Positions 4,700 through 20,835 of a DNA stretch of 22,554 bases are shown piece by piece; position 1 is the stretch's first letter; the number at the start of each line of letters is the position of its first letter. Made by a program: the position numbers and the translations under genes. A model generated the notes under the pieces. It saw nothing but the letters and a program-made list of their open reading frames with translations. It did not search any database and had not been told where the DNA came from. The stretch is taken from IMG/VR virus record IMGVR_UViG_3300021090_000110, positions 1 through 22,554 of that record. One strand, given 5' to 3'. The stretch is from a virus.

Positions 4700-5257
4700 A
4701 TGGCAAAAGACCGTAAACCAGCAGAAATTGAGCGCGACCGCAGGAACATATCCAGGCTTTATTTGCAGGGGAAGATACAGGCGGAAATCGCAGTCGAATT
4801 AAAGCTGTCACAATCCACAATTAGCCGTGAATTAAAGCTATTGCAAGGTGAATGGAAACAGGAACGGGTATATGATATTAACGAAGCCAAAGCGCGGGAA
4901 CTGGCTAAGTTGGACAACCTGGAATTGGAATATTGGGAGGCGTGGAAACGAAGTCAGAAAAATTCGATCACAAATATAGACAGCACAGGTCCACTGGGTA
5001 GAACAAAAACAATGAAAGACGAAAATCAGTTTGGTGATTCTCGCTTTCTCGATGGCGTTATGGATTGCATAAAACAACGATGTGCCATTCTTGGTGTTGA
5101 GGCACCAAAGAAAATTTCTTCTGATCCACAAGCTAATATCAATATTGATTGGGACGAACTATCTCCCGATCAGATTTTACGGATTCGCAATGGGGAGGAT
5201 ATTGCCAGCATAAAGAGTGAAATTGATGAGCAACACAATAAGAGCGCAAAAAAATAA
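4700..5257 (+). CDS. Phage terminase small subunit, putative
   Basis: A 185-residue protein placed directly ahead of the large terminase, with a 32-base overlap. The N-terminus has a clear helix-turn-helix (about residues 14-47: RRNISRLYLQGKIQAEIAVE, then LSQSTISRELKLL) of the kind small terminases use to bind the packaging site. A coiled-coil-like acidic/basic helix follows (about 48-85), then an Arg/Lys-rich middle and an acidic C-terminus that may contact the large subunit. The start is supported by ACAGGTAAAAACAAGACATG, a modest ribosome site. A transcription regulator is the alternative, but position and length favour terminase. Confidence 0.7.
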   Translation: MAKDRKPAEIERDRRNISRLYLQGKIQAEIAVELKLSQSTISRELKLLQGEWKQERVYDINEAKARELAKLDNLELEYWEAWKRSQKNSITNIDSTGPLGRTKTMKDENQFGDSRFLDGVMDCIKQRCAILGVEAPKKISSDPQANINIDWDELSPDQILRIRNGEDIASIKSEIDEQHNKSAKK

Positions 5258-6860
5258 ATGGCAATTACGAGCTGAGGCTGAATTGCAACTTCGGGCGCGT
5301 CGGGGAGACAAGGGAATCGCGCCCTATATTCGTGGATACACAACCTACCAGAATGACCCCATAGGGTTTTGTCAAGATCATTTAAAATCCACCTTCACGG
5401 ATGAGATTAAAAAGGTAATTGAAAGTGTAAGGGATAACCCGGTGACTATTGCTGTTTCAGCCAATGGAGTAGGTAAGAGTTTTGCCGCCGCCAGGACCGC
5501 TGTTTGGTTCTACAAAGCCTTTCCACAATCTCAAGTTTATACATCTGCTGCGCCACCCGAAAAAAATCTTAAGAAGATATTATGGGGGCAAATTGGTTCA
5601 CTTGTCCATGATTTGCCTTTTGTGTTTACAGAAGATAAAATAAACGAAGACATGAACATCCAGAGGGAATCAAAATCCTTTATCACTGGTGTTATTATTC
5701 CATCATCGGGCACACCTGAACAACGGGAGGCTAAGTTCAGTGGCCGGCACGCGCCTTATCTATTTTTTATTGTGGACGAAGCTGACGCGGTGCCACCCGA
5801 AGTGTTCAAGGGAATCGAGTCTTGCATGTCGGGTGGTCATGCACGATTATTGATTATGTTCAATCCTCGCGCCGATAGGGGAGTAGTTGCAAATATGGTA
5901 AAGAACAAACAAGGGCATGTGATCCATCTATCCGCTTTTGACCATCCAAATGTTTTGACCGGAAAAGACCTTATTCCGGGCGCGGTCACACGCCAAAAGA
6001 CTGTCGAACGGATCAATGAAATGTCGGATGCGCTTGCACCTGGGGAAAAAAGGAGCATCGAATGTTTTGAGGTTCCAAACTTCCTTGTCGATTCCGTCGC
6101 TATTGACAAGGCCGGTAAGCCATACCCGCCATTATCCCCAGGATGGAGGCATGTTAGAAACCCCGAATTTTTTTACAAGGTGCTTGGTATATATCCACCA
6201 CAATCCGAAACCCAACTAATTTCACGTGCTTGGACGGACGCGGCAGTTAGCCGTTGGACTTCCTATGTTGCCAGATATGGCGAAGTTCCGCCCCCAACCA
6301 CGCTACCTGTTTTAGGACTGGATGTTGCCGACATGGGTGCGGATAAAAACAAACTTTTACAACGCTGGGGAGGATGGGTTCCTCGTCTACGAGGCTGGGG
6401 CGGCGTCGATCCAGATATGACAGCGATCAAGGCGGTTGAGATTATCAAGGAACTAAATGTCCCACTCCATGCCATCAACGTATTTGTGGATGGCACGGGA
6501 GTCGGCGCGGGTGTTGCCCCAAGAATGAATCGCCTTGGAATACCAAATGCGACAAGAGTCATGGTTGCATCTTCGCCAACTTACAAAACAGAGATGGGTG
6601 AGTTTTACCAACTACGAGATCAGTTATGGTGGTCAGCTATGTTATGGTTAAAAAATGATCCCGGTGCAATGCTGCCTCCTAATGATGAGTTGATTGATGA
6701 ACTTCTTGCTCCTACCTATTGGACCGGTGAGAGGGATGGTAAACTAAGGGTATCGAGCAAGGAAACAATGATTGAATCCCTTGGACGTTCCCCTGATTCT
6801 GCCGAGGCTTTAGTGCTATCCTTTGCGCCGGCCATGCCCGTCGCTGGAGCATTCCGATGA
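5226..6860 (+). CDS. Terminase large subunit
   Basis: The packaging motor: an ATPase that pumps DNA into the prohead and a nuclease that cuts the concatemer. Numbered from ATG 5226 (544 residues), the Walker A motif is SANGVGKS at 78-85. Walker B is LFFIVDEAD at about 179-187. A coupling FNP motif is at about 212-214. The RNase H-like nuclease carries aspartates in LGLDVADMG (about D366), VDGTGVG (about D422) and SPDSAEALVLSF (about D524). All key residues are present and the length is normal. A GTG at 5217 gives three more residues but has no better ribosome site. The gene overlaps the small terminase and ends in an ATGA overlap with the next gene. Confidence 0.93.
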   Translation: MSNTIRAQKNKWQLRAEAELQLRARRGDKGIAPYIRGYTTYQNDPIGFCQDHLKSTFTDEIKKVIESVRDNPVTIAVSANGVGKSFAAARTAVWFYKAFPQSQVYTSAAPPEKNLKKILWGQIGSLVHDLPFVFTEDKINEDMNIQRESKSFITGVIIPSSGTPEQREAKFSGRHAPYLFFIVDEADAVPPEVFKGIESCMSGGHARLLIMFNPRADRGVVANMVKNKQGHVIHLSAFDHPNVLTGKDLIPGAVTRQKTVERINEMSDALAPGEKRSIECFEVPNFLVDSVAIDKAGKPYPPLSPGWRHVRNPEFFYKVLGIYPPQSETQLISRAWTDAAVSRWTSYVARYGEVPPPTTLPVLGLDVADMGADKNKLLQRWGGWVPRLRGWGGVDPDMTAIKAVEIIKELNVPLHAINVFVDGTGVGAGVAPRMNRLGIPNATRVMVASSPTYKTEMGEFYQLRDQLWWSAMLWLKNDPGAMLPPNDELIDELLAPTYWTGERDGKLRVSSKETMIESLGRSPDSAEALVLSFAPAMPVAGAFR

Positions 6861-7049: not shown

Positions 7050-7098
7050 ACAGAGTAATTCGGTAGAATTTTTCTACTACATCCTGTCCCGAAGTTTT

Positions 7099-7136
7099 GC
7101 GAAAGGCCATGAGCATAAGCACTCATGGCCTTTCGC
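7099..7136 (+). promoter_or_regulatory. Strong stem-loop in the portal leader
   Basis: GCGAAAGGCCATGAG (7099-7113) pairs perfectly over 15 bp with 7122-7136 around an 8-base loop. A smaller perfect hairpin, GTAGAA-TTT-TTCTAC, lies at about 7064-7078. No T-run follows, so it is not a classic terminator. It sits between the promoter at 7020-7049 and the portal start at 7163 and may control leader RNA processing or elongation. Confidence 0.6.
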
Positions 7137-7162
7137 GTTCACTACGTTCACAAGGAATTACC

Positions 7163-8617
7163 ATGACCACAAAATCACGCATACCCCTGCCGCCTGTGCC
7201 AACCACACGGATGACCAAGAATCAAATCATCCAAACCTATCAAAACGTAATGGCCGTCTTCGAGCGTACTGCGCTGGCCGGCAGCCTCGGCCAAACATTC
7301 GGAGGGGATCGTGACATGTACCAAATACTAGGGTGGAAAAAGCGGCTTGAATTTCAGGACTATCTTGATCTGTATGATCGCAACGGCATGGCCGCGAGAG
7401 TCGTGGATGCGCTGGCCGACGAAAGCTGGCGGCTTGCGCCTGAAATGACGGATGGTGATATTCAGAGTGGTGATGAGGACGAGGACAAGCTGACTGAATT
7501 CCTGACATCATGGAATGAAATGGCGGAGCGGCTTGATCTGTGGAGTATCTTCAATGATCTGGATACCGCGCTGGGCATCAGCCGCTATGCCGTGATCCTG
7601 CTGGGCGCGCCCGGCAAACTTGACTCACCCCTCGCCCGTGCAGTGACTATCAACTATCTGCAAGTGTATGATGAGGGACAGGCAAAAATTTCCACAACAG
7701 ATCGGGATATAAACTCACGACGCTATGGAATGCCCACCATGTACAACATTACCTTTGAGGATGGCGGGCAAAGCCGGCCAGTGCATTTCACACGGGTCAT
7801 CCACTGCAAGGAAGGGCGCGGACGATCCAGAGTCTATGGCATTCCACGACTGAAGAAGTCCTATAACTATCTCTCCGATCTGGAGAAAGTGGTCGGCTCA
7901 TCGAGCGAGGCGTTCTGGTTGTTGATCCGCAAGGGTCTTATCATCTCCGCGAAAGAGGGGATGCAGTTGCCCACCAAGGGATCACCCGACTATGAGGATA
8001 TGCAGGCCGAGATCAGTGAATGGGAACATCAATTACGGCGCGTCATGCGCGTGAAAGGCATGGATGTGACAGACCTGGGAGCGCAGGTGGTGGATGGCAA
8101 GGCGCAACACGACCTGCTCATCACGGATATAGCCGGCACCAACGGAATGCCACAAAGAGTCCTGGTCGGGTCCGAGCGCGGCGAACTTGCATCTACACAG
8201 GATGACTCAAATTGGGCCGGCGTGGTCGCAGCCCGCCAGCATCAGGAATGTGAAAAGTGGGTCAAGGACTATGCACGCACCCTGATTGCATTAGGCACAT
8301 TACCCAAGCCCAACGGTAAAATGGGGGTAAAATGGCAGGAGCTGTTCAAGTTGACAGCGATGGATCGCGCTATTATTGCAGATAAGGTTGCGGCCACAAT
8401 TGTACACATCACCAATGGGGCACCAGAAACAGCAGTGGACATTGCCGAATTCATGAAGGAGCATTTCAATTACATCCTTCCAAAGAACGCGACCACGCCC
8501 AAAGCAACCGCACCTGTTGTCATCAAAAAAATTCCCAACTCGACGCCTCCCGGTAGTAATGGCGGCGGGTTGAAGGGCAAACAAACCTCACAATTGATTG
8601 AGGACGCCATAGGATAA
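7163..8617 (+). CDS. Portal protein, DUF1073 family
   Basis: A 484-residue protein forming the dodecameric DNA gate at the capsid vertex. The match is to the DUF1073 portal group. Evidence includes an early Tyr/Arg-rich segment (LDLYDRNGMAARVVDALAD), a central VHFTRVIHC strand, then SYNYLSDLEKVVGSSSEAFW and later NGMPQRVLVGSERGELAST, the loop typical of these portals. AAGGAATTACC sets the start at 7163. An upstream ATG (7097) falls inside the leader stem-loop and is rejected. Some DUF1073 proteins are fused to an Acb1-like phosphoesterase. Here the C-terminus is a short Pro/Gly-rich tail and has no such domain. Confidence 0.85.
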   Translation: MTTKSRIPLPPVPTTRMTKNQIIQTYQNVMAVFERTALAGSLGQTFGGDRDMYQILGWKKRLEFQDYLDLYDRNGMAARVVDALADESWRLAPEMTDGDIQSGDEDEDKLTEFLTSWNEMAERLDLWSIFNDLDTALGISRYAVILLGAPGKLDSPLARAVTINYLQVYDEGQAKISTTDRDINSRRYGMPTMYNITFEDGGQSRPVHFTRVIHCKEGRGRSRVYGIPRLKKSYNYLSDLEKVVGSSSEAFWLLIRKGLIISAKEGMQLPTKGSPDYEDMQAEISEWEHQLRRVMRVKGMDVTDLGAQVVDGKAQHDLLITDIAGTNGMPQRVLVGSERGELASTQDDSNWAGVVAARQHQECEKWVKDYARTLIALGTLPKPNGKMGVKWQELFKLTAMDRAIIADKVAATIVHITNGAPETAVDIAEFMKEHFNYILPKNATTPKATAPVVIKKIPNSTPPGSNGGGLKGKQTSQLIEDAIG

Positions 8618-11898: not shown

Positions 11899-12176
11899 GA
11901 TTACCAATTAAAGCACTCAAGGAACTTTCTAAAACATACGGATATTCCCATGTGGTGATTTATGTGTATGACCAGGCCGGCAACATGTCACACGTCGCAA
12001 CCTATGGCCGCACCCTCCGAGAGTGCGATCAAGCCGCACAATTAGGAGACATGCTAAAAGATGCGCTCAAGTGGCCTGAAACACTACATGCCGTTCCTAA
12101 TAGAGTTAAGAAGTTGCAGGACAGGATCAAGGAATTGGAACAGGAACTCAGATCATATGAGATCACAGATGGGTAA
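11895..12176 (+). CDS. Small conserved phage protein (LPIKA-type)
   Basis: A 93-residue protein starting MRLPIKALKELSKTYGYSHV. It resembles a widespread phage family that opens with LPIKAAKEIAxKYGYxQVIIIA, continues with a G-x-HV-x-TYG turn and then ARxGDxLK. Here these are YSHVVIYVYD, SHVATYGRTL and AAQLGDMLKD. The C-terminus adds a basic/acidic coiled coil (RVKKLQDRIKELEQELRS). The function of the family is unknown to me. Start ATG 11895 overlaps the upstream stop as ATGA. Confidence 0.65.
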   Translation: MRLPIKALKELSKTYGYSHVVIYVYDQAGNMSHVATYGRTLRECDQAAQLGDMLKDALKWPETLHAVPNRVKKLQDRIKELEQELRSYEITDG

Positions 12177-12180
12177 CAGC

Positions 12181-13086
12181 ATGAGAAAATTCCTCTGCAC
12201 GCGAAACAGGGACAGCGCAGATGCTTATGTCACCGCATTATTGAATGCCGGCTTTATGGAAACCAAGAATCCGACAGAAGCAGACTTCTGGTTGTACGAC
12301 TACGAGCGTGACCATTATAATAAGACCCTGAATCTATTCAAAGACAAGCCCAAATTTATCTATCCTCACGTGCCCTATGGATGGTGGGTATGGGATGGCA
12401 TCTGCGCCGTGGATGACGTGTCCTGCAACTTCGTGGTCAGCGAGGGAGCCAAACAGGGGATGCGGTTGTATGGGTATCCTCATCCCATTGAAGTGTGCGG
12501 ATTTCCAAGATGTGAGCTGAGGCCATTCCAGCCGACACAAGGCATGAAACTTTTATTTGCACCCTCGCATACCCTCGGCAAAAGTGGCAAGTATCCCACT
12601 CCTGAATGTGTTGACTATCACCGGGCGGCAATGCGTCACATCATCGCCCTGAAAGATCACTTCGAGAGTGTCACTGTCCGCTATGCCTATGACCTGACGA
12701 CCAGCGGCTTCACGGAATTCGCACATGAATCAGGCATCACCTTTACGCGGGCGGAAGCCTTGAGTGTTTCCGATTCATTGAAAGCCATTGAGCAGGCCGA
12801 CATCATCATATCCTGCGGAACGTTCGGCTATCTTTCGCTTGCCATTGGAAAGCCCACGATCCTGTATGGAAACAGGACTCCCGCCTCCCGCGCCGGCAAG
12901 GTGAAGCATTATGCAAGCTATAAGCACCTGATCGACTTCCCCAAGCCCTTCGAGTCCCTGACCTTCGATGATGTGGCGAATGTCGGCCTGCAACCGGATC
13001 CCGAGGTGGAGCAGTGGAAAAGCCTTATGCTGGGCCAGCCTTTCAATGCAGAGAAGTTTATTTCAGTGGTAAGGGAGTTTGTATGA
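12181..13086 (+). CDS. GT-B-like glycosyltransferase, paralogue 1
   Basis: A 301-residue protein. The C-terminal half reads LKAIEQADIIISCGTFGYLS then LAIGKPTILYGNRTPASRAG (about 200-239). This is the layout of GT-B enzymes, where an Asp-Ile-Ile strand, a Ser/Thr turn and a G-K-P-T/V-I strand form the nucleotide-sugar site. The N-terminal half has a YPHVPYGWWVWDG loop, a SEGAKQGMRLYGYP segment and LLFAPSH at about 124-130. It shares these with the protein at 13365 (YPHAARPFVGWDG, AEGHIDVIRAYGY, ILFAPIH), so the two are tandem paralogues. An alternative start at 12169 adds four residues. Sugar and acceptor unknown. The stop forms ATGA with the next gene. Confidence 0.6.
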   Translation: MRKFLCTRNRDSADAYVTALLNAGFMETKNPTEADFWLYDYERDHYNKTLNLFKDKPKFIYPHVPYGWWVWDGICAVDDVSCNFVVSEGAKQGMRLYGYPHPIEVCGFPRCELRPFQPTQGMKLLFAPSHTLGKSGKYPTPECVDYHRAAMRHIIALKDHFESVTVRYAYDLTTSGFTEFAHESGITFTRAEALSVSDSLKAIEQADIIISCGTFGYLSLAIGKPTILYGNRTPASRAGKVKHYASYKHLIDFPKPFESLTFDDVANVGLQPDPEVEQWKSLMLGQPFNAEKFISVVREFV

Positions 13087-13364: not shown

Positions 13365-14426
13365 ATGCCGGCTTGTCCTTTTTGTCCTAGCCGTTATGCG
13401 AGTCTTGTGCGGAAGATGACCAATGTGGATTGCTATCGCTGTGTAAAATGTGGTAGGGAATTCATGGTATCAAAACCATCAAAGACGATCATCAGGACAA
13501 TGGGTGCACCGGGCAAGGGCTATTACATCTACCGACATCAGGGAAAAGAAATCCCGTTTGAAGAAGCCCTGTGCAACGCCGGCTACTGGAACACGGGAGA
13601 TATTAGCAAGGCCAGAATTGTACTCATGGATGTGGACACCGCCGGCAGAGTCGCACACTTTCAAAAAGACAAGACAAAGCTGTTTGTTTATCCCCATGCC
13701 GCAAGACCTTTTGTGGGTTGGGATGGACTCTTCACATCATCACAACACACGTCCGCAGCTTTCGTGTTCGCCGAGGGACATATTGATGTGATCCGCGCAT
13801 ATGGGTACAAGAAGCCATTACATCCTGTCGGGTGGGCATACAGTGAGATCAAGCCATTTGTGCCGGCCAGTGACCCAAAGAAAATATTGTTTGCACCCAT
13901 CCATCCAAACCGCAACGGCTGGCTGTCGGCAATGGATAAGAATATCAACAAGCGCACATACAAAATTCTGCTGGACATGATCGATACGCACGACATGAGT
14001 CTGACAGTCAGACTCATCAGAGGTCTGGATGCAAACGGGCTATGGAAGGATAACCGAGTCTGTTATGTGGAAGGTCAGACCAACACGAAGCAGATGGATG
14101 ATCTTGCACGCGCCGACATTGGGGTGAGCCATCAAACATACGCATGGATTGGTGTGGCATTGGGCCGGCCAATGGTGATGATGGGGGAAGGGGAAGCGCC
14201 TCGTAATGGTGGTAGTGAGGCGGATTTCAAACAGGTGAAGTCCTGGGACTTGTATCGTCACCTATTAGCCTTTCCGCTGGACATATTGAACACGGAAGAC
14301 CCTTACGGTCTTCTCGTGCAGGCATGTGAGAGTGATGAGTGTATCCGTGATTGGAAATCCCGCATGATCGGCAGCGAGACCTTTGATCCAAAAAAATTTA
14401 TCAGCGCAATGGAGATGTATCTATGA
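13365..14426 (+). CDS. Zinc-ribbon plus GT-B-like protein, paralogue 2
   Basis: A 353-residue protein. Residues 1-35 form a four-Cys zinc ribbon (CPFC at 4-7, CYRCVKC at 23-29). From about residue 53 the chain matches the 12181 protein. YYIYRHQGKEIPFEEAL leads into the acidic VLMDVD strand, then YPHAARPFVGWDG, AEGHIDVIRAYGY, KKILFAPIHP and DLARADIGVSHQTYAWIGVA before LGRPMVMMGEGEAP. Both proteins end in a WKSxMxG..F..KKFIS block. This fusion is absent from paralogue 1. GGAAAGTTGATCC precedes the ATG. Likely a sugar transferase with an added nucleic-acid- or protein-binding head. Acceptor unknown. Confidence 0.6.
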   Translation: MPACPFCPSRYASLVRKMTNVDCYRCVKCGREFMVSKPSKTIIRTMGAPGKGYYIYRHQGKEIPFEEALCNAGYWNTGDISKARIVLMDVDTAGRVAHFQKDKTKLFVYPHAARPFVGWDGLFTSSQHTSAAFVFAEGHIDVIRAYGYKKPLHPVGWAYSEIKPFVPASDPKKILFAPIHPNRNGWLSAMDKNINKRTYKILLDMIDTHDMSLTVRLIRGLDANGLWKDNRVCYVEGQTNTKQMDDLARADIGVSHQTYAWIGVALGRPMVMMGEGEAPRNGGSEADFKQVKSWDLYRHLLAFPLDILNTEDPYGLLVQACESDECIRDWKSRMIGSETFDPKKFISAMEMYL

Positions 14427-14674
14427 AACAACCAAAAAAAATGAACGTCATTATGGTCAACACCCCCATCCATGATTGGTTTGAGATATCCTATGCACAC
14501 TACCTAACCATCCCGCGCCTGGTGATGGAGTCCATGCCGGCTGAATGGCAGGAGAAGATGGTTGCGCTCTTGCAGGAAATGGATGACACCTTTGTTCGGC
14601 GGCTTCTAAGATTGCGCGGAGTTCTTCGATTGTGTAATCTCCGCTCAAATAGATTTCTCCGCTTTCACGAATGA
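14423..14674 (+). pseudogene. Phage gene truncated by the foreign insert
   Basis: Begins MKQPKKMNVIMVNTPIHDWF with an ATGA overlap to the GT-like gene. The N-terminal 57 residues (through QEMDDTF, base 14593) resemble a small phage family with VNTPxxxWFxxSYAxYLxxP and ESMPxEWQ, seen in many tailed phages and of unknown function to me. From 14594 the frame runs antisense through a minus-strand gene and gives an Arg/Leu-rich tail (VRRLLRLRGVLRLCN) unlike the rest. The break falls exactly at GTTCGGCGGC, so the native C-terminus was probably lost by insertion. I see no clear remnant of that C-terminus to the right of the insert. Confidence 0.65.
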
Positions 14675-14747
14675 CAGCAAACGGTTCGTCGCTCATTAGG
14701 TGTTTGCCACCCATGCGGCTTGTGTGTTCTTCAAAAATAATTGGCAT
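14457..14747 (-). CDS. Cassette-type small protein with chimeric C-terminus
   Basis: A 96-residue frame starting MPIIFEEHTSRMGGKHLMSD behind AAGGAAATAAC. The native part runs through SDEPFAVIRESGEIYLSG, a strand-rich segment, and the helix TIEELRAILEAAEQR (to about base 14594). Beyond that the frame enters antisense phage DNA and yields an Ala/Pro/Ser-rich tail that is not expected to be native. It may be a fusion product made by the insertion. Function not recognised. Its compact size and place before an attC-like box are typical of integron-cassette genes. Confidence 0.5.
   Translation of the reverse strand: MPIIFEEHTSRMGGKHLMSDEPFAVIRESGEIYLSGDYTIEELRAILEAAEQRCHPFPARAQPSSPAIQPAWTPSPGAGWLGSVHRISQTNHGWGC
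14594..14603 (-). repeat. attC-like core box at the left junction
   Basis: GTTCGGCGGC on the plus strand (GCCGCCGAAC on the minus strand). The same 10-mer occurs as GTTCGGCGGC at 15141-15150 and inverted as GCCGCCGAAC at 14767-14776 and 15370-15379. Here only the core box remains, followed directly by phage sequence. Confidence 0.55.
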
Positions 14748-14766
14748 GTTATTTCCTTCTCGGCGT

Positions 14767-14826
14767 GCCGCCGAACGGTCATGCTTTAGCGGCTTTGCGA
14801 CCCACACAGAAGTGGTACGCAAAGTT
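14767..14826 (-). repeat. Partial attC-like site 3
   Basis: GCCGCCGAAC (14767-14776) is followed by GGTCATGC, close to the GGTTATGC next to the AAC box of site 2. An adjacent stem CTTTGCG/CGCAAAG with inner CCAC/GTGG pairs completes an imperfect hairpin. The stop codon of the gene ending at 14779 lies inside it. The second core box is missing, so the site is degenerate or cut. Confidence 0.4.
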
Positions 14827-15030
14827 TGGTGCTGTTATGGGAGTATCACAATATTCGCACGACTCAAGCAAAGTCCGCTGCAAGCCGTGTTCTACCGCCT
14901 TCGCGCCTGGGCGAGTAAGTGCGTCGTAAGTTTCAAAATCAATTTCAGACCACAGACGGCCAGGACTATCTTCCGACGCAATGACGCGACCAGTATCATC
15001 ATTCATCCAGTACCTCAATTCATCTTCCAT
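14779..15030 (-). CDS. Cassette-type small protein, unknown
   Basis: An 83-residue protein starting MEDELRYWMNDDTGRVIASE behind AAGGAGTAAAA. The C-terminus has CEYC (about 60-63) and YHFC (about 73-76), a possible zinc site. The stop codon lies within attC-like site 3, as is usual for cassette genes whose reading frame ends in the recombination site. A longer upstream frame would run back through site 2 and is rejected because it lacks a ribosome site. Function unknown. Confidence 0.5.
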   Translation of the reverse strand: MEDELRYWMNDDTGRVIASEDSPGRLWSEIDFETYDALTRPGAKAVEHGLQRTLLESCEYCDTPITAPNFAYHFCVGRKAAKA

Positions 15031-15052
15031 TTTTACTCCTTGCCCGAAAGGG

Positions 15053-15150
15053 GCGGTAGAACGGTTATGCGTTACCAGCGGCAGGCACAACCAATTTTGA
15101 TTTTTTAGAGCCGCGCCCGCCTGCCGTCTGGTGCACGCGGTGTTCGGCGG
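15053..15150 (-). repeat. attC-like site 2 (full length)
   Basis: A roughly 98-bp imperfect palindrome. On the plus strand the arms are GCGT-T-ACCAGCGGCAGGC and GCCTGCCGTCTGGT-GC-ACGC. The stem is about 17 bp with one bulged T and a 1:2 internal loop, and the outer boxes are GTAGAAC (left) and GTTCGGC (right). The loop is about 30 bases. An imperfect stem with unpaired bases between two AAC/GTT boxes is the form that integron integrases recognise in folded attC sites. The 3' end of the gene at 15065 is inside it. Confidence 0.55.
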
Positions 15151-15340
15151 CTTTATAATTGCGCTCATCCTCATCTGACCATGTACCATTTGCTTTTTCA
15201 TTTTTACGGATCATGGCATAGGCTTTCATAAAATATGGTTCATGCTCCGCGATAACAAGAAAATTTTTGCGCTTGCTAATGAGCTTCATGGCGCGTGGGT
15301 GAAATTCTTCGTCGGTCTTGGGTCTTCGTTCAAGAAACAT
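15065..15340 (-). CDS. Cassette-type small basic protein ending in the attC-like site
   Basis: A 91-residue protein starting MFLERRPKTDEEFHPRAMKL behind AGAGAGGTACAAA. The first 63 residues (to about DERNYK) look like the real domain, basic and helical. The last part (AAEHRVHQTAGGRGSKKSK onward) is simply the translation of attC-like site 2, ending at a stop within the repeat. Such read-through tails are known for genes next to cassette recombination sites. Function not recognised. Confidence 0.5.
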   Translation of the reverse strand: MFLERRPKTDEEFHPRAMKLISKRKNFLVIAEHEPYFMKAYAMIRKNEKANGTWSDEDERNYKAAEHRVHQTAGGRGSKKSKLVVPAAGNA

Positions 15341-15369
15341 TTTGTACCTCTCTCTCGGCTGGCAAGGTA

Positions 15370-15426
15370 GCCGCCGAACGGCTGGCGTTAGCGGTGATGG
15401 GCGGGAGCTAGACCGCCACGCAAGCC
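15370..15426 (-). repeat. attC-like site 1
   Basis: A GCCGCCGAAC box followed by the hairpin GGCT-g-GCGT-ta-GCGGT with the opposite arm ACCGC-c-ACGC-a-AGCC (15380-15395 with 15412-15426). This gives 13 paired bases with one mismatch and a 2:1 bulge beside the GCGT/ACGC step. That is the same layout as site 2, although the inner sequences differ. It lies between the genes at 15065-15340 and 15431-15847. Confidence 0.55.
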
Positions 15427-15430
15427 ACGA

Positions 15431-15847
15431 TTATTTTTCAGACTCGTTTTTACGCACAGCATACCCATCATCCGCTGCACGCTGTGTTGGCTGTGTTTTT
15501 GCAGGACGACCAACAACACCAGGGCGCAATGATTCAATCTCGGATGGACGGAATAACCATTGCGCTGTATTTGGAACCTGAAACCCTATGCCGAATTGCT
15601 CATGTTTGATTTTAGCAATTGCGCGAACACGGCGAACACTGACGCCCAATTGCTCGGCAACATCGTCAACGGTGAGCAGGCTCAATAATGCGTAACTCTC
15701 GCCTGCTGAAAACGCGACCTGTGCCACCTGAGATAATGCTGTTCGCAATCTTGTTTCCGTCATCGTGCCTGCTCCGTTGGGGAGCAGGCTTTCGACCAGA
15801 TTGTTTATTCGTTGTTCATACAGTGATCGTGCTGATTTTTCATCCAT
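15431..15847 (-). CDS. HTH DNA-binding protein (MerR/excisionase-like)
   Basis: A 138-residue protein starting MDEKSARSLYEQRINNLVES. ATG 15847 overlaps the upstream stop, and the longer start at 15874 lies inside the previous gene without a ribosome site. The middle has a winged-helix type HTH (about 58-80: LLTVDDVAEQLGVSVRRVRA) followed by a wing-like KHEQFGIGFQVPNTAQWLF and FRPSEIESLRP. This matches the helix_turn_helix_17/excisionase pattern, where a strand and a helix place a Pro-Ser-Glu-Ile-like turn after the HTH. It may regulate the block or act in its movement. Confidence 0.6.
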   Translation of the reverse strand: MDEKSARSLYEQRINNLVESLLPNGAGTMTETRLRTALSQVAQVAFSAGESYALLSLLTVDDVAEQLGVSVRRVRAIAKIKHEQFGIGFQVPNTAQWLFRPSEIESLRPGVVGRPAKTQPTQRAADDGYAVRKNESEK

Positions 15848-16214
15848 GACAATTCTCGCAGAGTTCGCAGTCATTGCAGATGTCAGTTACTCGCCCACAT
15901 CGAGCGCACGCCTCATCGTAGCGCGTACCGCCCCACGAACACGATTGCTGAATTTCAGTTTCGATGATGTCTGAATTGATATTGAAATCATCACTGCCAA
16001 CGCCGCCAATACCTAATCCGCTGGAAATATCCATTGACTGATATTGTTTTTCAACGTGCAATTCCAATTCGTTTTCAGGATGCCAGATTGCAGGGCGTCC
16101 AGCGAAATCAACACGGTAGGCACATTTTTTATTTTCGTTGATTTCAATGATTGTGCCAACCTGCCCAGGGTGTGTGAATTTGTTTGTTACCTGATTACTA
16201 ATGTTGAATTTCAT
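15840..16214 (-). CDS. Protein with SH3-like start and C-terminal zinc cluster
   Basis: A 124-residue protein starting MKFNISNQVTNKFTHPGQVG, with AGGTGATGAA before ATG 16214. Residues 8-52 (HPGQVGTIIEINENKKCAYR, then VDFAG and WHPENELELH) look like a small SH3-like barrel. The C-terminus is Cys-rich (CARCGRVTDICNDCELCENC, about 103-122) and likely binds zinc. It is coupled to the HTH gene by an 8-base overlap. Function unknown. Confidence 0.5.
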   Translation of the reverse strand: MKFNISNQVTNKFTHPGQVGTIIEINENKKCAYRVDFAGRPAIWHPENELELHVEKQYQSMDISSGLGIGGVGSDDFNINSDIIETEIQQSCSWGGTRYDEACARCGRVTDICNDCELCENCHG

Positions 16215-16222
16215 TTCATCAC

Positions 16223-16570
16223 CTATCGAATTGTTTTGCCAGAGTGATTTTTGACGATACGGGCTGCGCTGTCATAGCCGTATTTGTTGATTAGGGCGTT
16301 GACGCCCTTGCGCCCGTTGGACTGATGGCGGCGGTGGTCTGCCATTTCAGCGAGTTTCTCGCGGCTCGTGCCAATCTCAAATTTGGCGGCGTCCAGATGT
16401 GTACCAAATTCAGCATTGACGCTATCCACCAGATTCAGGTGGGCTTCGATTTGCTCAATGGAGCAGGCGAGAATTCCAGTGAGTGCCATGCCCATTTTTG
16501 CATATTGCTGGCGGGTCGCGTTTGTGTCGTTCCAAATTTTCATTGCGCGTTCGTTGTTGTTTGTGTTCAT
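16223..16570 (-). CDS. Helical protein heading the minus-strand operon of the insert
   Basis: A 115-residue protein starting MNTNNNERAMKIWNDTNATR behind CAGGAGATAAAACG. Mostly alpha-helical (EQIEAHLNLVDSVNAEFGTH, SREKLAEMADHRRHQ), ending in a basic segment (RIVKNHSGKTIR). It is the first gene after the strong promoter at 16603-16631, which likely drives the genes down to 14457. No motif recognised. Confidence 0.5.
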   Translation of the reverse strand: MNTNNNERAMKIWNDTNATRQQYAKMGMALTGILACSIEQIEAHLNLVDSVNAEFGTHLDAAKFEIGTSREKLAEMADHRRHQSNGRKGVNALINKYGYDSAARIVKNHSGKTIR

Positions 16571-16602
16571 CGTTTTATCTCCTGTTGTTTGATTGTGACG
16601 TT

Positions 16603-16631
16603 ATTGTACCGACATCGGTATAGTTTGTCAA
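16603..16631 (-). promoter_or_regulatory. Strong insert promoter with embedded operator
   Basis: Minus strand: TTGACA (16631-16626), 17-base spacer, TACAAT (16608-16603). An inverted repeat TACCGA-CA-TCGGTA (16607-16620) sits between and over the boxes, suggesting repressor control. Another inverted repeat, GGGTAAA/TTTACCC (16632-16638 with 16651-16657), lies just upstream of the -35. Confidence 0.7.
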
Positions 16632-16719
16632 GGGTAAACAGAAAACTCGTTTTACCCGAAATCATGAACGCGGAGCAAACAGCCAACTATGATTTATACT
16701 GCAATATATGACTACAATA

Positions 16720-17031
16720 TCAAGACATACCCAATTTCGTCAATGCTCTTCGGACGGTTTCTGACTGTTGGCGCATAGGTAGAGATTGTAATGCGCTAAC
16801 CTGGCTCCTAAAAAGATAAAAGGGGCCAGCTCGTTTCATGCCTCTATTAGGAGCACCAACTCGTACAATGGAATAGGACTGTGATCCATCGGCTTTATCA
16901 TGAATGCAATACAGTGATTTCCTCGTACACGAATCACATAAAGAATAAAAGCGATTGTTATTCTTTATGGGGGGGCATAATGTTTTCTTCTTACAATCGT
17001 CATGAGGGCAGGGGGTGGTTAAATAGTTCAT
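16720..17031 (-). CDS. Small zinc-type protein from a leaderless promoter
   Basis: A 103-residue protein starting MNYLTTPCPHDDCKKKTLCP. Its early cysteines (C8, C13, C19), C32 and C35 (CDSC) and a later C42 could bind zinc. The C-terminal half is basic (MKRAGPFYLFRSQVSALQSL, then MRQQSETVRRALTKLG). The ATG lies six bases after a perfect TATAAT with TTGACA 16 bases upstream, so the RNA should start at or next to the ATG with no ribosome site. It is the first minus-strand gene of the block. Confidence 0.55.
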   Translation of the reverse strand: MNYLTTPCPHDDCKKKTLCPPIKNNNRFYSLCDSCTRKSLYCIHDKADGSQSYSIVRVGAPNRGMKRAGPFYLFRSQVSALQSLPMRQQSETVRRALTKLGMS

Positions 17032-17037
17032 AACTGT

Positions 17038-17065
17038 ATTATAGTCATATGTTGATGAGTGTCAA
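17038..17065 (-). promoter_or_regulatory. Consensus promoter giving a leaderless mRNA
   Basis: TTGACA (17065-17060), 16-base spacer, TATAAT (17043-17038), both perfect consensus. The expected start point, about seven bases past the -10, coincides with the ATG at 17031. Confidence 0.75.
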
Positions 17066-17112
17066 GGGAAACGAGACGCACAATTCATGCCCACAAAAGC
17101 CAGGAGCAACAG

Positions 17113-17154
17113 TTGACTAAACTATTGCCCAAATTCCACAAATTATGATATAGT
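17113..17154 (+). promoter_or_regulatory. Promoter-like element ahead of the protease gene
   Basis: TTGCCC (17125-17130), an 18-base spacer and TATAGT (17149-17154); a TTGACT lies at 17113-17118. The sequence after it, ending CTTCGGTAGATTT, matches the block after the promoter at 7020-7049. The same elements precede two late gene groups. Confidence 0.5.
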
Positions 17155-17205
17155 CTGAGCACTTCGGTAGATTTCAAAACCACATAAATGCCCGAACGGA
17201 TCAAA

Positions 17206-17245
17206 CGCCTAAGAGTGTATCGCTCTTTTCGGGCGTTTTGCTTTT
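17206..17245 (+). terminator. Stem-loop terminator 1
   Basis: AAGAG/CTCTT core with outer CGCC/GGGCG pairs, then TTTTGCTTTTT. A longer pairing, GCCCGAA (17190-17196) with TTCGGGC (17228-17234), is also possible. It lies in the leader of the protease gene. Confidence 0.55.
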
Positions 17246-17273
17246 TGCATAATCATCGAGAAGACCGATACAT

Positions 17274-17313
17274 GCCCCAAAGAGTGTCAACACTCTTTGG
17301 GGCTTTTTATTTT
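17274..17313 (+). terminator. Strong terminator 2 just before the protease gene
   Basis: A perfect 14-bp stem (GCCCCAAAGAGTGT, 17274-17287, with 17290-17303, two-base gap) followed by TTTTTATTTT. This is a textbook intrinsic terminator, placed only 17 bases before the TTG start of the next gene. It shares AAGAGTGT with terminator 1. Transcripts from upstream should end here unless modified. Confidence 0.85.
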
Positions 17314-17330
17314 CAGACAAGGATACCACC

Positions 17331-19322
17331 TTGAACATCCTGCTTTATGCAAATCAAAACCAGTTGGACTACGAGACACTGCGCGAGATTGACCATGATG
17401 GGCGCACGTGGCTGGTAATCAATGGTGTGCCAATTGTGGAAGGTGTGCTCGGCCAATTCCTCGTGCCCTATGAGGAATTCGGTGCGTTCCCTGCCGATTG
17501 GAATGATGTGCCCCTGGTACTCAATCATCCTGTGGAAAATAATGGGTCGGCAAGAGTCTCATCTCCAGACGTGCCCGTTATAGGACGCTTTCATAATGCC
17601 GGCCTCGATCCGCAGGGACGCCGGCTGACTGGTGAGTACTGGCTGGACAAGATCAATTTTCTTGCAACCGATGATGGGCCGGCCATGTACGAAAAGATGC
17701 GCCTCGGCCAGCCCATCGAAGTGTCAACAGGATACTTCGCGCCCGGCACTCAGTTCGTCAATGGCATATTCAAAGGCAAGCAATACACGGGAATACACAA
17801 AGGGATTCATCCCGATCACATAGCGATCCTACCATCAAACATTGGCAATTGTTCAGTAATGGATGGTTGTGGACTCAATCGCAACTCTGCGGATGGTATC
17901 TTTGCCAATTGTGGTGATAGTGCCAACTGCAACAAAGCCGACTGTCCCATGCGCGACAAGAATATGGGCATTGCTCCCATGCACAAGATGGAAGCCAACA
18001 TGACCGGGAGTCTGCCGGCCGGGGGCAAAAAGATTTATGAGCAGGTCTATAAAGAACTAATCAAAAAAGGGAAGTCCAAAGAATCTGCTTCAAAACAAGC
18101 CTGGGGCGCAGTCAAGGCCGCCGGCTGGCATATGGGCGAGGGTGGCAAGTGGATGATGCAGAACGAAGCATCTCCAGAAGACCACACCAACTCCGCCATG
18201 ATCTCGCTGATGATCCCCGATCAACTCAAAGCTGACCTGCAAAAAGCATACCCATTCATGGATGATGTGACACGTGACAACCTGCACATCACCATTTGTT
18301 ATTTGGGGGATGTGCGCACACTGGACAAGGAAGCAGCGGTCAAAGCCCTGCTCTATGCCGCATCGAACGTGCCTCCGATCAAAGCCAAACTGCAAGGGCT
18401 GGCACGCTTCGTCAATGGCGATGAGAAGGACCCGATTGTATTGACTTTCGACAGTCCACAACTCATGACGCTTTATCGCAAGATCAAGATGTCCCTGAAC
18501 GATCAAAAAATACCATATCACGATGAGCACGGCTTCATCCCGCACATGACTATCGGTTATGTGGGCAAGGATGAGAAGATGCCCATCGATACCATCGAAC
18601 CTCTGGAGATCAATTTCTCTGAGATGACACTGACAGCCGGCGCGACCATGATCCCTGCCACATTGAGTGGTTACACAGGTGGGGACAGCTATATAAATTC
18701 CAAGCAATCCGCGAACCAGCTACGAGGCTGGCTTGCTAATGCAACACATTTCACCAAGGAGTTTCTTATGAAAAATGCACAGTTAGCCGCATTCCTGAAA
18801 TCCATTGGCTTCAAGAACGTGAAGATCGAAGACAATGGAACTGATGGGCTTTCAGTGGAACTCGAAGGTCAAGGCAGTGAAACCGCTCTCGACGGGCTTG
18901 TACAACTCAATTCCGTTGTGCAGTCTGTGGGCGGCGCAACTGAATTCACCAAGACCTTCGAGGCATTGAAAGGCTTGCCGGAAATCCTGGCAAACATGCA
19001 AACGCAGATGAACGAAAAACTGGCAATCGTCCAGAACGTCGCGTCATTTGCGGAGTCCGTAGCCGAGAAAGAAAAGGCTACAAAGACGGCCCTGATCGCC
19101 GGGCTTGTCGCCAACAAAGCAAATCCGTTTGACGAAGCAGTGCTCAACACCATGTCGGTCACTGTCCTCGAAAAACTGAATGCGTCCTATCAGCCGGTTG
19201 ATTACTCTGGCCTGGGTGCCGGCGTGTTTAGCAATGTCGAGAGCAAGCCCTTAGCCGTGCCTCAAGGCTATCTCTCCCTGTTCCAGAATGCAGAAGGGAA
19301 CCAGACAAAGGATAAGGTGTAA
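17331..19322 (+). CDS. Prohead protease (DUF2213)-ChaB-2H phosphoesterase-scaffold fusion
   Basis: A 663-residue protein starting at TTG 17331 behind AAGGATACCACC. Residues about 25-180 match DUF2213 prohead-protease-like proteins: GVPIVEGVLG, LVLNHP (H66, a likely catalytic His), GRRLTGEYWLD, EVSTGY (S132, a likely nucleophile) and GNCSVMDGCG. Residues about 229-275 (KKIYEQVYKELIKKGKSKES then AWGAVKAAGW and GKWMM) resemble ChaB. Residues about 288-450 form a 2H phosphoesterase with HIT at 319-321 and HMT at 405-407, both followed by hydrophobic strands (CYLGD, GYVG). From about 478 the chain is scaffold-like. The 2H family hydrolyses cyclic or 2'-5' phosphodiesters and includes the anti-CBASS enzyme Acb1. 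No residue of either HxT motif is lost. Confidence 0.8.
   Translation: MNILLYANQNQLDYETLREIDHDGRTWLVINGVPIVEGVLGQFLVPYEEFGAFPADWNDVPLVLNHPVENNGSARVSSPDVPVIGRFHNAGLDPQGRRLTGEYWLDKINFLATDDGPAMYEKMRLGQPIEVSTGYFAPGTQFVNGIFKGKQYTGIHKGIHPDHIAILPSNIGNCSVMDGCGLNRNSADGIFANCGDSANCNKADCPMRDKNMGIAPMHKMEANMTGSLPAGGKKIYEQVYKELIKKGKSKESASKQAWGAVKAAGWHMGEGGKWMMQNEASPEDHTNSAMISLMIPDQLKADLQKAYPFMDDVTRDNLHITICYLGDVRTLDKEAAVKALLYAASNVPPIKAKLQGLARFVNGDEKDPIVLTFDSPQLMTLYRKIKMSLNDQKIPYHDEHGFIPHMTIGYVGKDEKMPIDTIEPLEINFSEMTLTAGATMIPATLSGYTGGDSYINSKQSANQLRGWLANATHFTKEFLMKNAQLAAFLKSIGFKNVKIEDNGTDGLSVELEGQGSETALDGLVQLNSVVQSVGGATEFTKTFEALKGLPEILANMQTQMNEKLAIVQNVASFAESVAEKEKATKTALIAGLVANKANPFDEAVLNTMSVTVLEKLNASYQPVDYSGLGAGVFSNVESKPLAVPQGYLSLFQNAEGNQTKDKV
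18768..19322 (+). CDS. Nested scaffold protein, internal start
   Basis: In the same frame as the fusion protein, AAGGAG (18756-18761) lies six bases before ATG 18768 (residue 480), giving a 184-residue product starting MKNAQLAAFLKSIGFKNVKI. It holds the helical, Ala/Glu/Lys-rich segment (LPEILANMQTQMNEKL, VASFAESVAEKEKATKT) expected of an internal scaffold. A protease gene with an internal in-frame scaffold start is the known lambda C/Nu3 arrangement. The start here sits just after the 2H domain, so the nested product would lack protease and phosphoesterase. Confidence 0.6.
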   Translation: MKNAQLAAFLKSIGFKNVKIEDNGTDGLSVELEGQGSETALDGLVQLNSVVQSVGGATEFTKTFEALKGLPEILANMQTQMNEKLAIVQNVASFAESVAEKEKATKTALIAGLVANKANPFDEAVLNTMSVTVLEKLNASYQPVDYSGLGAGVFSNVESKPLAVPQGYLSLFQNAEGNQTKDKV

Positions 19323-19324
19323 CA

Positions 19325-19789
19325 ATGGCATACAAAACCGCACCCTCGACAATTATCCTGAGTGGTGATCCGCAATATATGGAATTGCCGCTCGAACCGC
19401 TGGATGCCTATGGCGTCGGCGGGATTACCCCCGGCTTTCTGGTTGAACGCAATGCAAGCAACAAATATCAACCGCATAGTAGCGCCGCCGGAATAGCCTC
19501 TCCAATCTTCGCAGTCGAGAACATGCTTCTCGGTAAGGGGATCGATGATGCCTACATTGTGGACAATGAGGCCGTGCTTGCTCAATTCTGCAAGCCGGGC
19601 GACCACGTGTATGCCCTACTCGAAGCCGGCGGCGGCAACGTAACTGCAGTCGGCACACTCTTGAACTCAAACGGCGCGGGACTCTTGCAGGTTGGGGCCA
19701 CCCTGCCCGTTGCACGCGCCCTTGAAGTAGTCGATAACGACCCTGGCACGGATGGGGCTGCCATGCGCGTTCGCGTGGAGGTGATCTAA
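19325..19789 (+). CDS. Putative head decoration / capsid-stabilising protein
   Basis: A 154-residue protein between the protease/scaffold and the major capsid gene, the usual place for decoration or capsid-stabilising proteins (lambda gpD-like or DUF2190-like). It is Gly/Ala/Val-rich and strand-rich: ITPGFLVERNASN, IFAVENMLLGKGIDD, KPGDHVYALLEAGGGNV and NGAGLLQVGATLP. The start is two bases after the previous stop. The end overlaps the capsid start (TAATG), whose GGAGGTGAT ribosome site lies in this gene's last codons. Confidence 0.6.
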   Translation: MAYKTAPSTIILSGDPQYMELPLEPLDAYGVGGITPGFLVERNASNKYQPHSSAAGIASPIFAVENMLLGKGIDDAYIVDNEAVLAQFCKPGDHVYALLEAGGGNVTAVGTLLNSNGAGLLQVGATLPVARALEVVDNDPGTDGAAMRVRVEVI

Positions 19790-20835
19790 TGGACATGGCT
19801 CAAATTCTCAATAGTAATTTTGGGTATATGCCAATGCCCTCCCTTGTCGGCTCGATGCGCCCGTACATCAACGGACGCGGCGAGTTTGTGGTGAATATTG
19901 GCACACCCAGCAACCCACGTGAACGGGTGGTCGCCAATGCCCTGCTTCGCACAGATGAATGGGAGCAGATCGACTCTGCCGTGATGGATGTTGTTCGTCT
20001 GCCAAATATCGCCCTGAATGATTTCCTACGTCTTGGGTTGACCCAGCCGCTCGATGGAATGGGCGTGACGGTATCCATCTACGATCAATTGGGTGACATG
20101 ACCGGAGCCGACCTGAGCATGAACGGCGAGGTTCGCGGTGAGAAGGATCGGATTCCTCTCACTCCGCAATCCGTCCCTGTGCCCTTGATCTACAAGGATT
20201 TTCAAATCCCACTACGCTCCCTCGAATCATCCCGCCGGGGTGTGCGTGCCGCAGCGATACCGCTGGACACCACCTATGCCACTGTTGCCACCCGCAAGGT
20301 CCAGGACAAGGTGGATGATGTGATCTTCAATGGCGATGTGAAAGTGTTGGGAGGCACAGGCCCTATTTATGGCCTGACCAACAAGCCCCAGCGCATCCAG
20401 AAGACCTCCGCTCAGTGCGGGGGCGGCGATTTTGGCACTTCCGGAAATGCCTATAAGACCATCAACGGCGCGATCAATCTGCTCCATGCCGCCGGCTTCA
20501 ACGGCCCGTTCGGATGTTATCTGTCCACCACGCAGTACGGACAGATCAACCAACTGATTTCCAACACCGCTGTTTCCGAGTTAGCCGCGATTGTCGCGCA
20601 GATTCCAGACCTTGCCTTCCTCAAGCTCTCCACAAAACTTACCGATGGTGAAATGATCCTCTGGCAATTGACCAAGGATGTTGCGGACATCGCCATTGCA
20701 CAGGATGTCTCAACGGTCAATTGGGAATCGCTCGGCGGTTTCTTAATCGACTTCCGCATCTTCACGTGCCTGACTGTACGTGTCAAGCACGATTACAACG
20801 GTGCCTGTGGCGTGATCCACATCACAGGATGCTAA
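19789..20835 (+). CDS. Major capsid protein (HK97-fold)
   Basis: A 348-residue protein directly after the decoration-like gene, behind a near-perfect GGAGGTGAT ribosome site, the best in the window. It has the expected HK97-type order: an N-terminal region, then the E-loop/spine area around IPLTPQSVPVPLIYKDFQIP, and the spine helix with LDTTYATVATRKVQDKVDDV and IFNG. A P-domain/A-domain follows (TINGAINLLHAAGFNGPFGC, then LSTTQYGQI), with a C-terminal strand region ending in FRIFTCLTVRVKHDYNGACG. Sequence and length fit linocin/encapsulin-type and phage capsid proteins of this size. Gene order supports the call. Confidence 0.8.
   Translation: MDMAQILNSNFGYMPMPSLVGSMRPYINGRGEFVVNIGTPSNPRERVVANALLRTDEWEQIDSAVMDVVRLPNIALNDFLRLGLTQPLDGMGVTVSIYDQLGDMTGADLSMNGEVRGEKDRIPLTPQSVPVPLIYKDFQIPLRSLESSRRGVRAAAIPLDTTYATVATRKVQDKVDDVIFNGDVKVLGGTGPIYGLTNKPQRIQKTSAQCGGGDFGTSGNAYKTINGAINLLHAAGFNGPFGCYLSTTQYGQINQLISNTAVSELAAIVAQIPDLAFLKLSTKLTDGEMILWQLTKDVADIAIAQDVSTVNWESLGGFLIDFRIFTCLTVRVKHDYNGACGVIHITGC

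Follow-up and report, generated by a model that had tools for sequence, protein, structure and literature searches.

Integron cassette arrays have previously been reported in phage genomes. In a screen of 10,705 phage genomes, Qi et al. 2023 (PMC9892861) obtained three complete integrons, one In0 and 17 integrase-free integron cassette arrays (CALINs). Five of the six attC sites of virulent phages tested in that study recombined with attI1 (IntI1), and those of its phages that bear an integron integrase (IntI) carry host-like integrons. The sul4 integron module described in a 2025 study (PMC12772301) adjoins a prophage region of Caudoviricetes, and one of its hosts is a Chloroflexota metagenome-assembled genome (MAG). 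Our literature search, outside which most subscription papers lay, yielded nothing further on integrons in Anaerolineae or beside a terminase gene. Here, we analyzed a 22,554-bp fragment of a tailed phage (hereafter the window), which is the single IMG/VR record IMGVR_UViG_3300021090_000110. The block at 14594-16687 is a genuine CALIN, with three clustered attC sites and no integrase gene (intI) nearby. Integrase-free arrays in phages are already known (Qi et al. 2023, PMC9892861), and the remark in the initial annotation of the window that such arrays are rarely described does not hold against the 17 cases. What seems to be new is the source of the cassettes, one attC being common to the window and to a complete phage-borne integron.

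With regard to the attC sites, the initial annotation had noted attC-like hairpins with shared boxes. A structural finder was written for the succession AAC, spacer, L'' arm, loop, L' arm, spacer and GTT; on known resistance integrons, it recovered attC sites with extra L''-arm bases. Three sites in the window satisfied its strict rule, each of them on the minus strand, at 15373-15492 (attC-A), 15056-15148 (attC-B) and 14770-14895 (attC-C), versus a mean of 0.007 and a maximum of one in 150 dinucleotide shuffles. Since the strict rule was fixed only after the sites were known, a covariance model trained on 30 attCs from other contigs, and on none from the window, was used as the independent test. 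This model gave exactly three matches in the 22.5-kb window and nothing else, all on the minus strand and within 723 bp, with E-values from 1.4e-11 to 4.1e-9: 51.7 bits (E 2.7e-11) for attC-A, 43.1 bits (E 4.1e-9) for attC-B and 52.7 bits (E 1.4e-11) for attC-C. No match at E<=1 was obtained on four phage loci without cassettes (L008, L009, L016 and L019). The covariance-model search proposed in the initial annotation, in which a failure of the models would have spoken against attC sites, thus found them.

The three sites share a common architecture. Each carries two extra bases, six nucleotides apart, in the L'' arm and none in the L' arm, a polarity identical to that of class 1 attCs, and all three lie on the coding strand of the open reading frames (ORFs). 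The boxes of the initial annotation are present: GTTCGGCGGC occurs on the minus strand at 15379-15370 and 14776-14767, and its complement GCCGCCGAAC at 15151-15142 and 14603-14594. They do not form a single GCCGCCGAAC family, the R'' boxes of the four cassettes being GCCAAC, GCCGCCGAAC, GGCGGTAGAAC and GCCGCCGAAC. As had been noted for two genes, stop codons lie inside the repeats: that of gene 3 in attC-B and that of gene 2 in attC-C. The stop codon of gene 4, whose 3' end overlaps attC-A, is a further case. The attC reading is supported, and the observation as a whole is partly confirmed.

The cassette boundaries were derived from a circle rule, according to which the first bases after G|TT in a circular cassette pair with its own R'' box. 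The starts at 16687, 15379, 15062 and 14776 match the R'' boxes at 15486, 15142, 14889 and 14594 over 9, 11, 11 and 10 bp, respectively; in control arrays, most cassettes show a match of 8-14 bp. These matches delimit four cassettes on the minus strand. Cassette A (15379-16686, start TTGGCTGT) contains a sigma-70-like promoter, TTGACA-TACAAT, followed by gene 6 (16570-16223), gene 5 (16214-15840) and gene 4 (15847-15431), which encodes a helix-turn-helix protein; the block had indeed been credited with promoters of its own. Cassette B (15062-15378, start TTCGGCGGCT) contains gene 3 (15340-15065, 91 aa), cassette C (14776-15061, start TTCTACCGCC, R'' GGCGGTAGAAC) contains gene 2 (15030-14779, about 83 aa), and cassette D (14594-14775, start TTCGGCGGC, R'' GCCGCCGAAC) contains gene 1 (about 52 aa, ATG at 14747). 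Cassettes A, B and C each consist of coding sequence with attC-A, attC-B or attC-C, respectively, at the 3' end on the same strand, and cassette D has an R'' box only (14603-14594). In a permutation test of the four start/R'' pairings, two of the 24 assignments tie, because cassettes B and D carry an identical start box and the test does not separate them.

The array is smaller than first proposed (seven genes over 14594-17105), with its left end at 14594 unchanged. Its right end is at 16687, where cassette A starts at a G|TT, and no attC accompanies gene 7. The array thus comprises six genes in four cassettes, one of them a three-gene cassette, with gene 7 outside. Gene 7 (16720-17031) was considered as a further cassette and rejected, as it showed neither an attC match nor a complementary start. 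It has its own TTGACA-TATAAT promoter and is bracketed by an 18-bp inverted repeat (16702-16719 and 17037-17054, 89% complementary); gene and repeat may form a small unit of their own, mobile or regulatory.

The array disrupts the head operon of the phage. The plus strand carries a tailed-phage head module, whose order is broken between 14594 and 16687 by the minus-strand genes, as the initial annotation had seen. At the left end, the array is cut precisely at the R'' box, and the next base belongs to a truncated late-operon gene of the phrog_3527 family (14423-14593, plus strand), with which homologues align up to residue 57 (DDTF, 14593). The remaining 35-40 or so residues of these homologues were sought on either side of the block and not found, which indicates that the left end is not that of a clean single insertion. 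An apparent NRF match in the C-terminal stretch of the truncated ORF was judged a coincidence, because this stretch encodes gene 1 on the opposite strand. At the right end, the minus-strand junction ...AATCATAG|TTGG... (16687-16700), with the G|TT crossover point placed by the circle rule, is a possible, weak attI-like or secondary site. The hexamer GCCGGC is absent from 14536 to 17598, about 3.06 kb, in line with the gap of about 3 kb first noted.

Parts of the array have relatives in other phages. Over 102 bp, attC-B shares 92% identity with an attC that belongs to the complete integron of the phage contig G001 (L017) and stands there on a different gene; with a piece in L018, the identity is 98% over 61 bp. 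The cassette A leader, which runs from G|TT across the promoter, shares 75% identity over 73 bp with the opening part of a multi-gene cassette of phage L031. The matches of both elements are to phage-borne integrons, and neither matched the chromosomal arrays sampled, a limited set. Phage L019 has a gene with 75% identity to gene 6, and phage L009 has one with 59% identity to gene 4, beside which lies a relative of gene 5. Since L009 and L019 have no attC, cassette A is made of genes found outside cassettes in other phages. Relatives carrying the genes without the repeats, which the initial annotation had named as adverse, therefore exist; yet they are diverged (59-75%) and cover the genes of one cassette only, and the attC is present on the window cassette only. 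No viral relative of gene 1 was found by the method used, no relative of gene 4 in genome_contigs or plasmids, and no good match of the window cassette genes to known families. Among the products of cassettes in the relatives are two DNA methyltransferases, one of the D12 type and one of the C5 type, as well as an ASCH protein and a PAPS-reductase/ParB pair. This content is consistent with roles against host defence, which for the window genes would be a guess. In L031 (12415-14117) and L146 (12302-14004), a PAPS-reductase/DUF3440 gene and a ParB-domain gene form a pair in a multi-gene phage cassette common to both.

Contig G001 contains an IntI scoring 405 bits against TIGR02249 (cut-off 265) and a cassette array, and also carries TerL and a major head protein. 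Its 67,683 bp (L024-L027) hold two related phage units in tandem, with two phrog_9 terminases and paired homologous genes; the integron is found only in the first unit, between the early genes and TerS. Relatives of this IntI were sought in viral and genome collections, and the close ones were found on IMG/VR contigs and on two Chloroflexota MAG contigs, L032 (Chloroflexi bacterium CFX6) and L033 (Anaerolineales MAG_12). The G001 integrase belongs to a phage IntI clade of nine contigs with a support of 100/100 (100/99 in a tree with four members). As the IntIs of L148 and L149, and those of L150 and L151, are identical, the nine contigs represent seven distinct integrons. A terminase large-subunit gene is present on all nine; phrog_2 failed as a terminase probe on these relatives and phrog_9 worked. 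The intI gene lies directly downstream of TerL or within about 0.5 kb in L031, L033, L148, L149, L150 and L151. In L030, L032 and L146, it is located a few kb upstream of TerL. The catalytic residues of tyrosine recombinases (R, K, HxxR, H, Y) are invariant in four aligned members. Identity to sampled chromosomal Anaerolineae IntIs is 43-55%, and at those loci no terminase match was obtained within the fetched flanks, with limited flanks and probes.

The phage clade also has a distinctive layout. intI and the attCs are co-directional in all nine contigs, versus a divergent intI in 22 of the 23 chromosomal Anaerolineae loci with attCs. The single exception, L102, adjoins phage-like genes (primase-like and DUF5131-like, by eye) and may represent an independent phage-resident lineage. 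It is the second intI of Anaerolineales MAG_12, distant (44% identity) and phage-like, and the junction of its first cassette, AATCATAAG|TTGG, lies over the intI stop codon. Downstream of the phage-clade intI, a conserved TGGATAAGGATAG|TT overlaps the intI stop codon, and in L032, L033 and L150 the first cassette, as defined by the circle rule, starts exactly at the G|TT of this motif, which is therefore very probably the attI of the clade; exceptions are L031, with TAG rather than TT after the motif, and L033, in which the motif is degenerate. The predicted phage attI would cover the region over the intI stop codon and end in GGATAAGGATAG|TT. Dozens of further IMG/VR contigs (L152-L224) carry IntIs at 34-53% identity, some with attC-model matches; in those scanned, the attCs lie mostly opposite to intI, and in some the terminase is far off. 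These contigs could be prophages beside host integrons and were left out of the argument.

IntI recombinases fold the bottom strand of an attC into a hairpin, in which extrahelical bases fix strand and polarity. They cut at G|TT, and circular cassettes are excised or inserted. Considering the observed site structure, the cassette boundaries, the attC common to a phage-borne complete integron and the phage IntI clade, we regard it as very likely that 14594-16687 is a four-cassette CALIN among the head genes of a tailed phage that probably infects Anaerolineae. Each cassette consists of a gene, or in cassette A of an operon of three genes under a promoter of its own, and an attC behind it. Judging from integron biology, the attCs would be recombined as folded bottom strands, and the array would have entered through IntI action, with the integrase acting in trans. 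The integrase could be supplied by the host chromosome, by a co-infecting or co-resident phage, or from an unsequenced part of the genome. After entry, the left end would have been eroded or rejoined at the R'' box.

Several observations weigh against this interpretation. The R boxes GTTCGGC, GTTCTAC and GTTCGGC depart from the consensus GTTRRRY / RYYYAAC and retain the GTT/AAC core; GTTCGGC at R' is also present in other Anaerolineae-type arrays used here. The simple folding energies of the sites are unexceptional versus shuffles (z 0.1 to -1.7); plain DNA folding is unsuited as a test for attC, and the covariance model was used instead. The 3' end of cassette D gave no match to this model, the rest of the last attC being missing. 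In agreement with the initial annotation, in which no integrase gene was visible, the integron integrase model TIGR02249 had no match anywhere in the 22.5-kb record, which is a fragment. The left junction lies inside a 13-bp repeat (TGTTCGGCGGCTT, 14593 and 15141) in a single metagenome contig, and a local misassembly is therefore possible. The last attC is missing, and no empty-site relative that would show the mode of entry was found: the searches gave no phage record with DNA similarity to the region and no close relative of the flanking 353-aa or 663-aa proteins. Finally, the probable host is deduced from the attC type and the relatives.

With regard to the host, we infer an Anaerolineae bacterium (Chloroflexota) because of the attC type, the frequency of IntI in this class (above the cut-off in 98 of the 396 sampled genomes) and the two clade members in Chloroflexota MAGs. 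The window TerL gave only weak matches in the 396 Anaerolineae genomes searched. On a broader level, Chloroflexota phages appear to run and share this gene-swapping system. The chances seem to us somewhat better than even that Anaerolineae phages keep an integron lineage of their own, with a monophyletic IntI by the terminase, an attI in the intI stop codon and co-directional cassettes. Under this proposal, the window array would come from a pool of cassettes (DNA methyltransferase, ASCH, PAPS-reductase/ParB) that circulates among these phages independently of chromosomes.

The array could instead be a piece of a sedentary chromosomal integron of the Anaerolineae host, acquired by illegitimate or homologous recombination, with no phage-resident system. 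The same attC geometry in chromosomal Anaerolineae integrons, the frequency of IntI in the class and the similar reading of some phage arrays in Qi 2023 (PMC9892861) are consistent with this origin, which we nevertheless consider rather unlikely: attC-B and the cassette A leader point to phage-borne integrons within the limited chromosomal sampling, and genes 4, 5 and 6 have relatives in other phages. Alternatively, the phage has or had a complete phage-resident integron of its own, with intI on the unsequenced part or lost and with AATCATAG|TT at 16687 as an attI remnant. The record is a fragment, phages with common cassette parts have complete integrons, and AATCATAG|TTGG resembles the AATCATAAG|TTGG of L102, which overlaps the intI stop. 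This likeness is suggestive only, as it involves roughly a dozen bases and came to light post hoc. No intI adjoins TerL or the array, and the attI motif of the phage clade is absent from the window; the proposal is tentative, and we would not expect it to be correct.

An assembly chimera, in which a cassette array from another molecule was joined to this phage, is improbable. The left junction in a repeat and the missing last attC would fit such an artefact, but the right junction falls at a G|TT crossover point, and other phage contigs, as well as two contigs of Chloroflexota MAGs, have arrays inside phage gene clusters. It is hardly credible that the block is just a convergent operon of small phage genes, with palindromes resembling terminators between them and no recombination system. 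The relatives of genes 6, 5 and 4 in attC-less phage operons and the similar promoters would suit such an operon, whereas the circle rule, the extra-base polarity, the covariance-model matches and an attC common to unrelated genes are unexpected for terminators.

If the preferred reading of a phage CALIN fed by phage-resident integrons is true, it bears on the usual view that integrons are bacterial and that phages carry captured pieces of them now and then. Given an IntI clade that resides in phages and has an attI layout of its own, and an attC whose gene differs from phage to phage, phages would be agents of cassette exchange. They would perhaps also be agents of cassette formation, as genes 4, 5 and 6 have attC-less phage relatives and are here in a cassette, which offers a tractable setting for the open question of cassette origin. 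The clade adds to the work of Qi et al. a natural phage integrase candidate for such sites, and the overlap of attI with the intI stop codon is a specific prediction that lends itself to testing.

The head module on the plus strand of the record is that of a tailed phage. The terminase large subunit (5217-6860; phrog_2, E 2.8e-24), which no integrase adjoins, is followed by the portal (7097-8617), a head protease fusion (17331-19322), the head decoration protein (19325-19789) and the major head protein (19789-20835). In the product of 17331-19322, a head-protease-like protein is fused to ChaB and to a 2'-5' RNA ligase / Acb1-like phosphoesterase domain; the Acb1 match (26.7 bits) is slightly below the cut-off, and an anti-CBASS function inside a structural gene is possible. 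The neighbouring plus-strand genes at 12061-13086 and 13365-14426 resemble diverged copies of each other, with DYERD/KFIYPH-like and GWxWDG-like motifs common to both (by eye).

Compared with known systems, the window resembles the CALINs of the phages Tetrasphaera TJE1, Polaribacter P12002L and Pseudoalteromonas PH101 (PMC9892861) in being an array without intI in a tailed phage. Its attCs are co-oriented, as in TJE1 and PH101, and our structural finder also detects two sites in TJE1. Unlike the phage CALINs of Qi et al. 2023, it has attCs of an Anaerolineae-like type, a cassette A that is an operon with phage relatives, and one attC in common with a phage-borne complete integron. The temperate phages Vibrio anguillarum p16 and Shewanella M16-3 (Qi et al. 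2023) resemble the phage clade in carrying IntI and an attC array in a phage or prophage. Their integrons are described as captured from the host, the M16-3 IntI being 95.3% identical to that of S. oneidensis and the Vibrio array being a subset of the host integron, whereas the phage-clade IntIs form a clade of their own, on TerL contigs and co-directional with the cassettes. The sedentary chromosomal Anaerolineae integrons of this survey share the attC geometry of the window, with a 3-nt spacer, a GCGT-G stem and an A bulge; they differ from the phage clade in their divergent intI (22/23) and in having no TerL nearby in the loci searched. Class 1 integrons, in turn, have the same attC architecture as the window, with two extra L'' bases six nucleotides apart, and differ in spacer lengths, R-box sequence and cassette content as well as in intI1, which the window does not carry.

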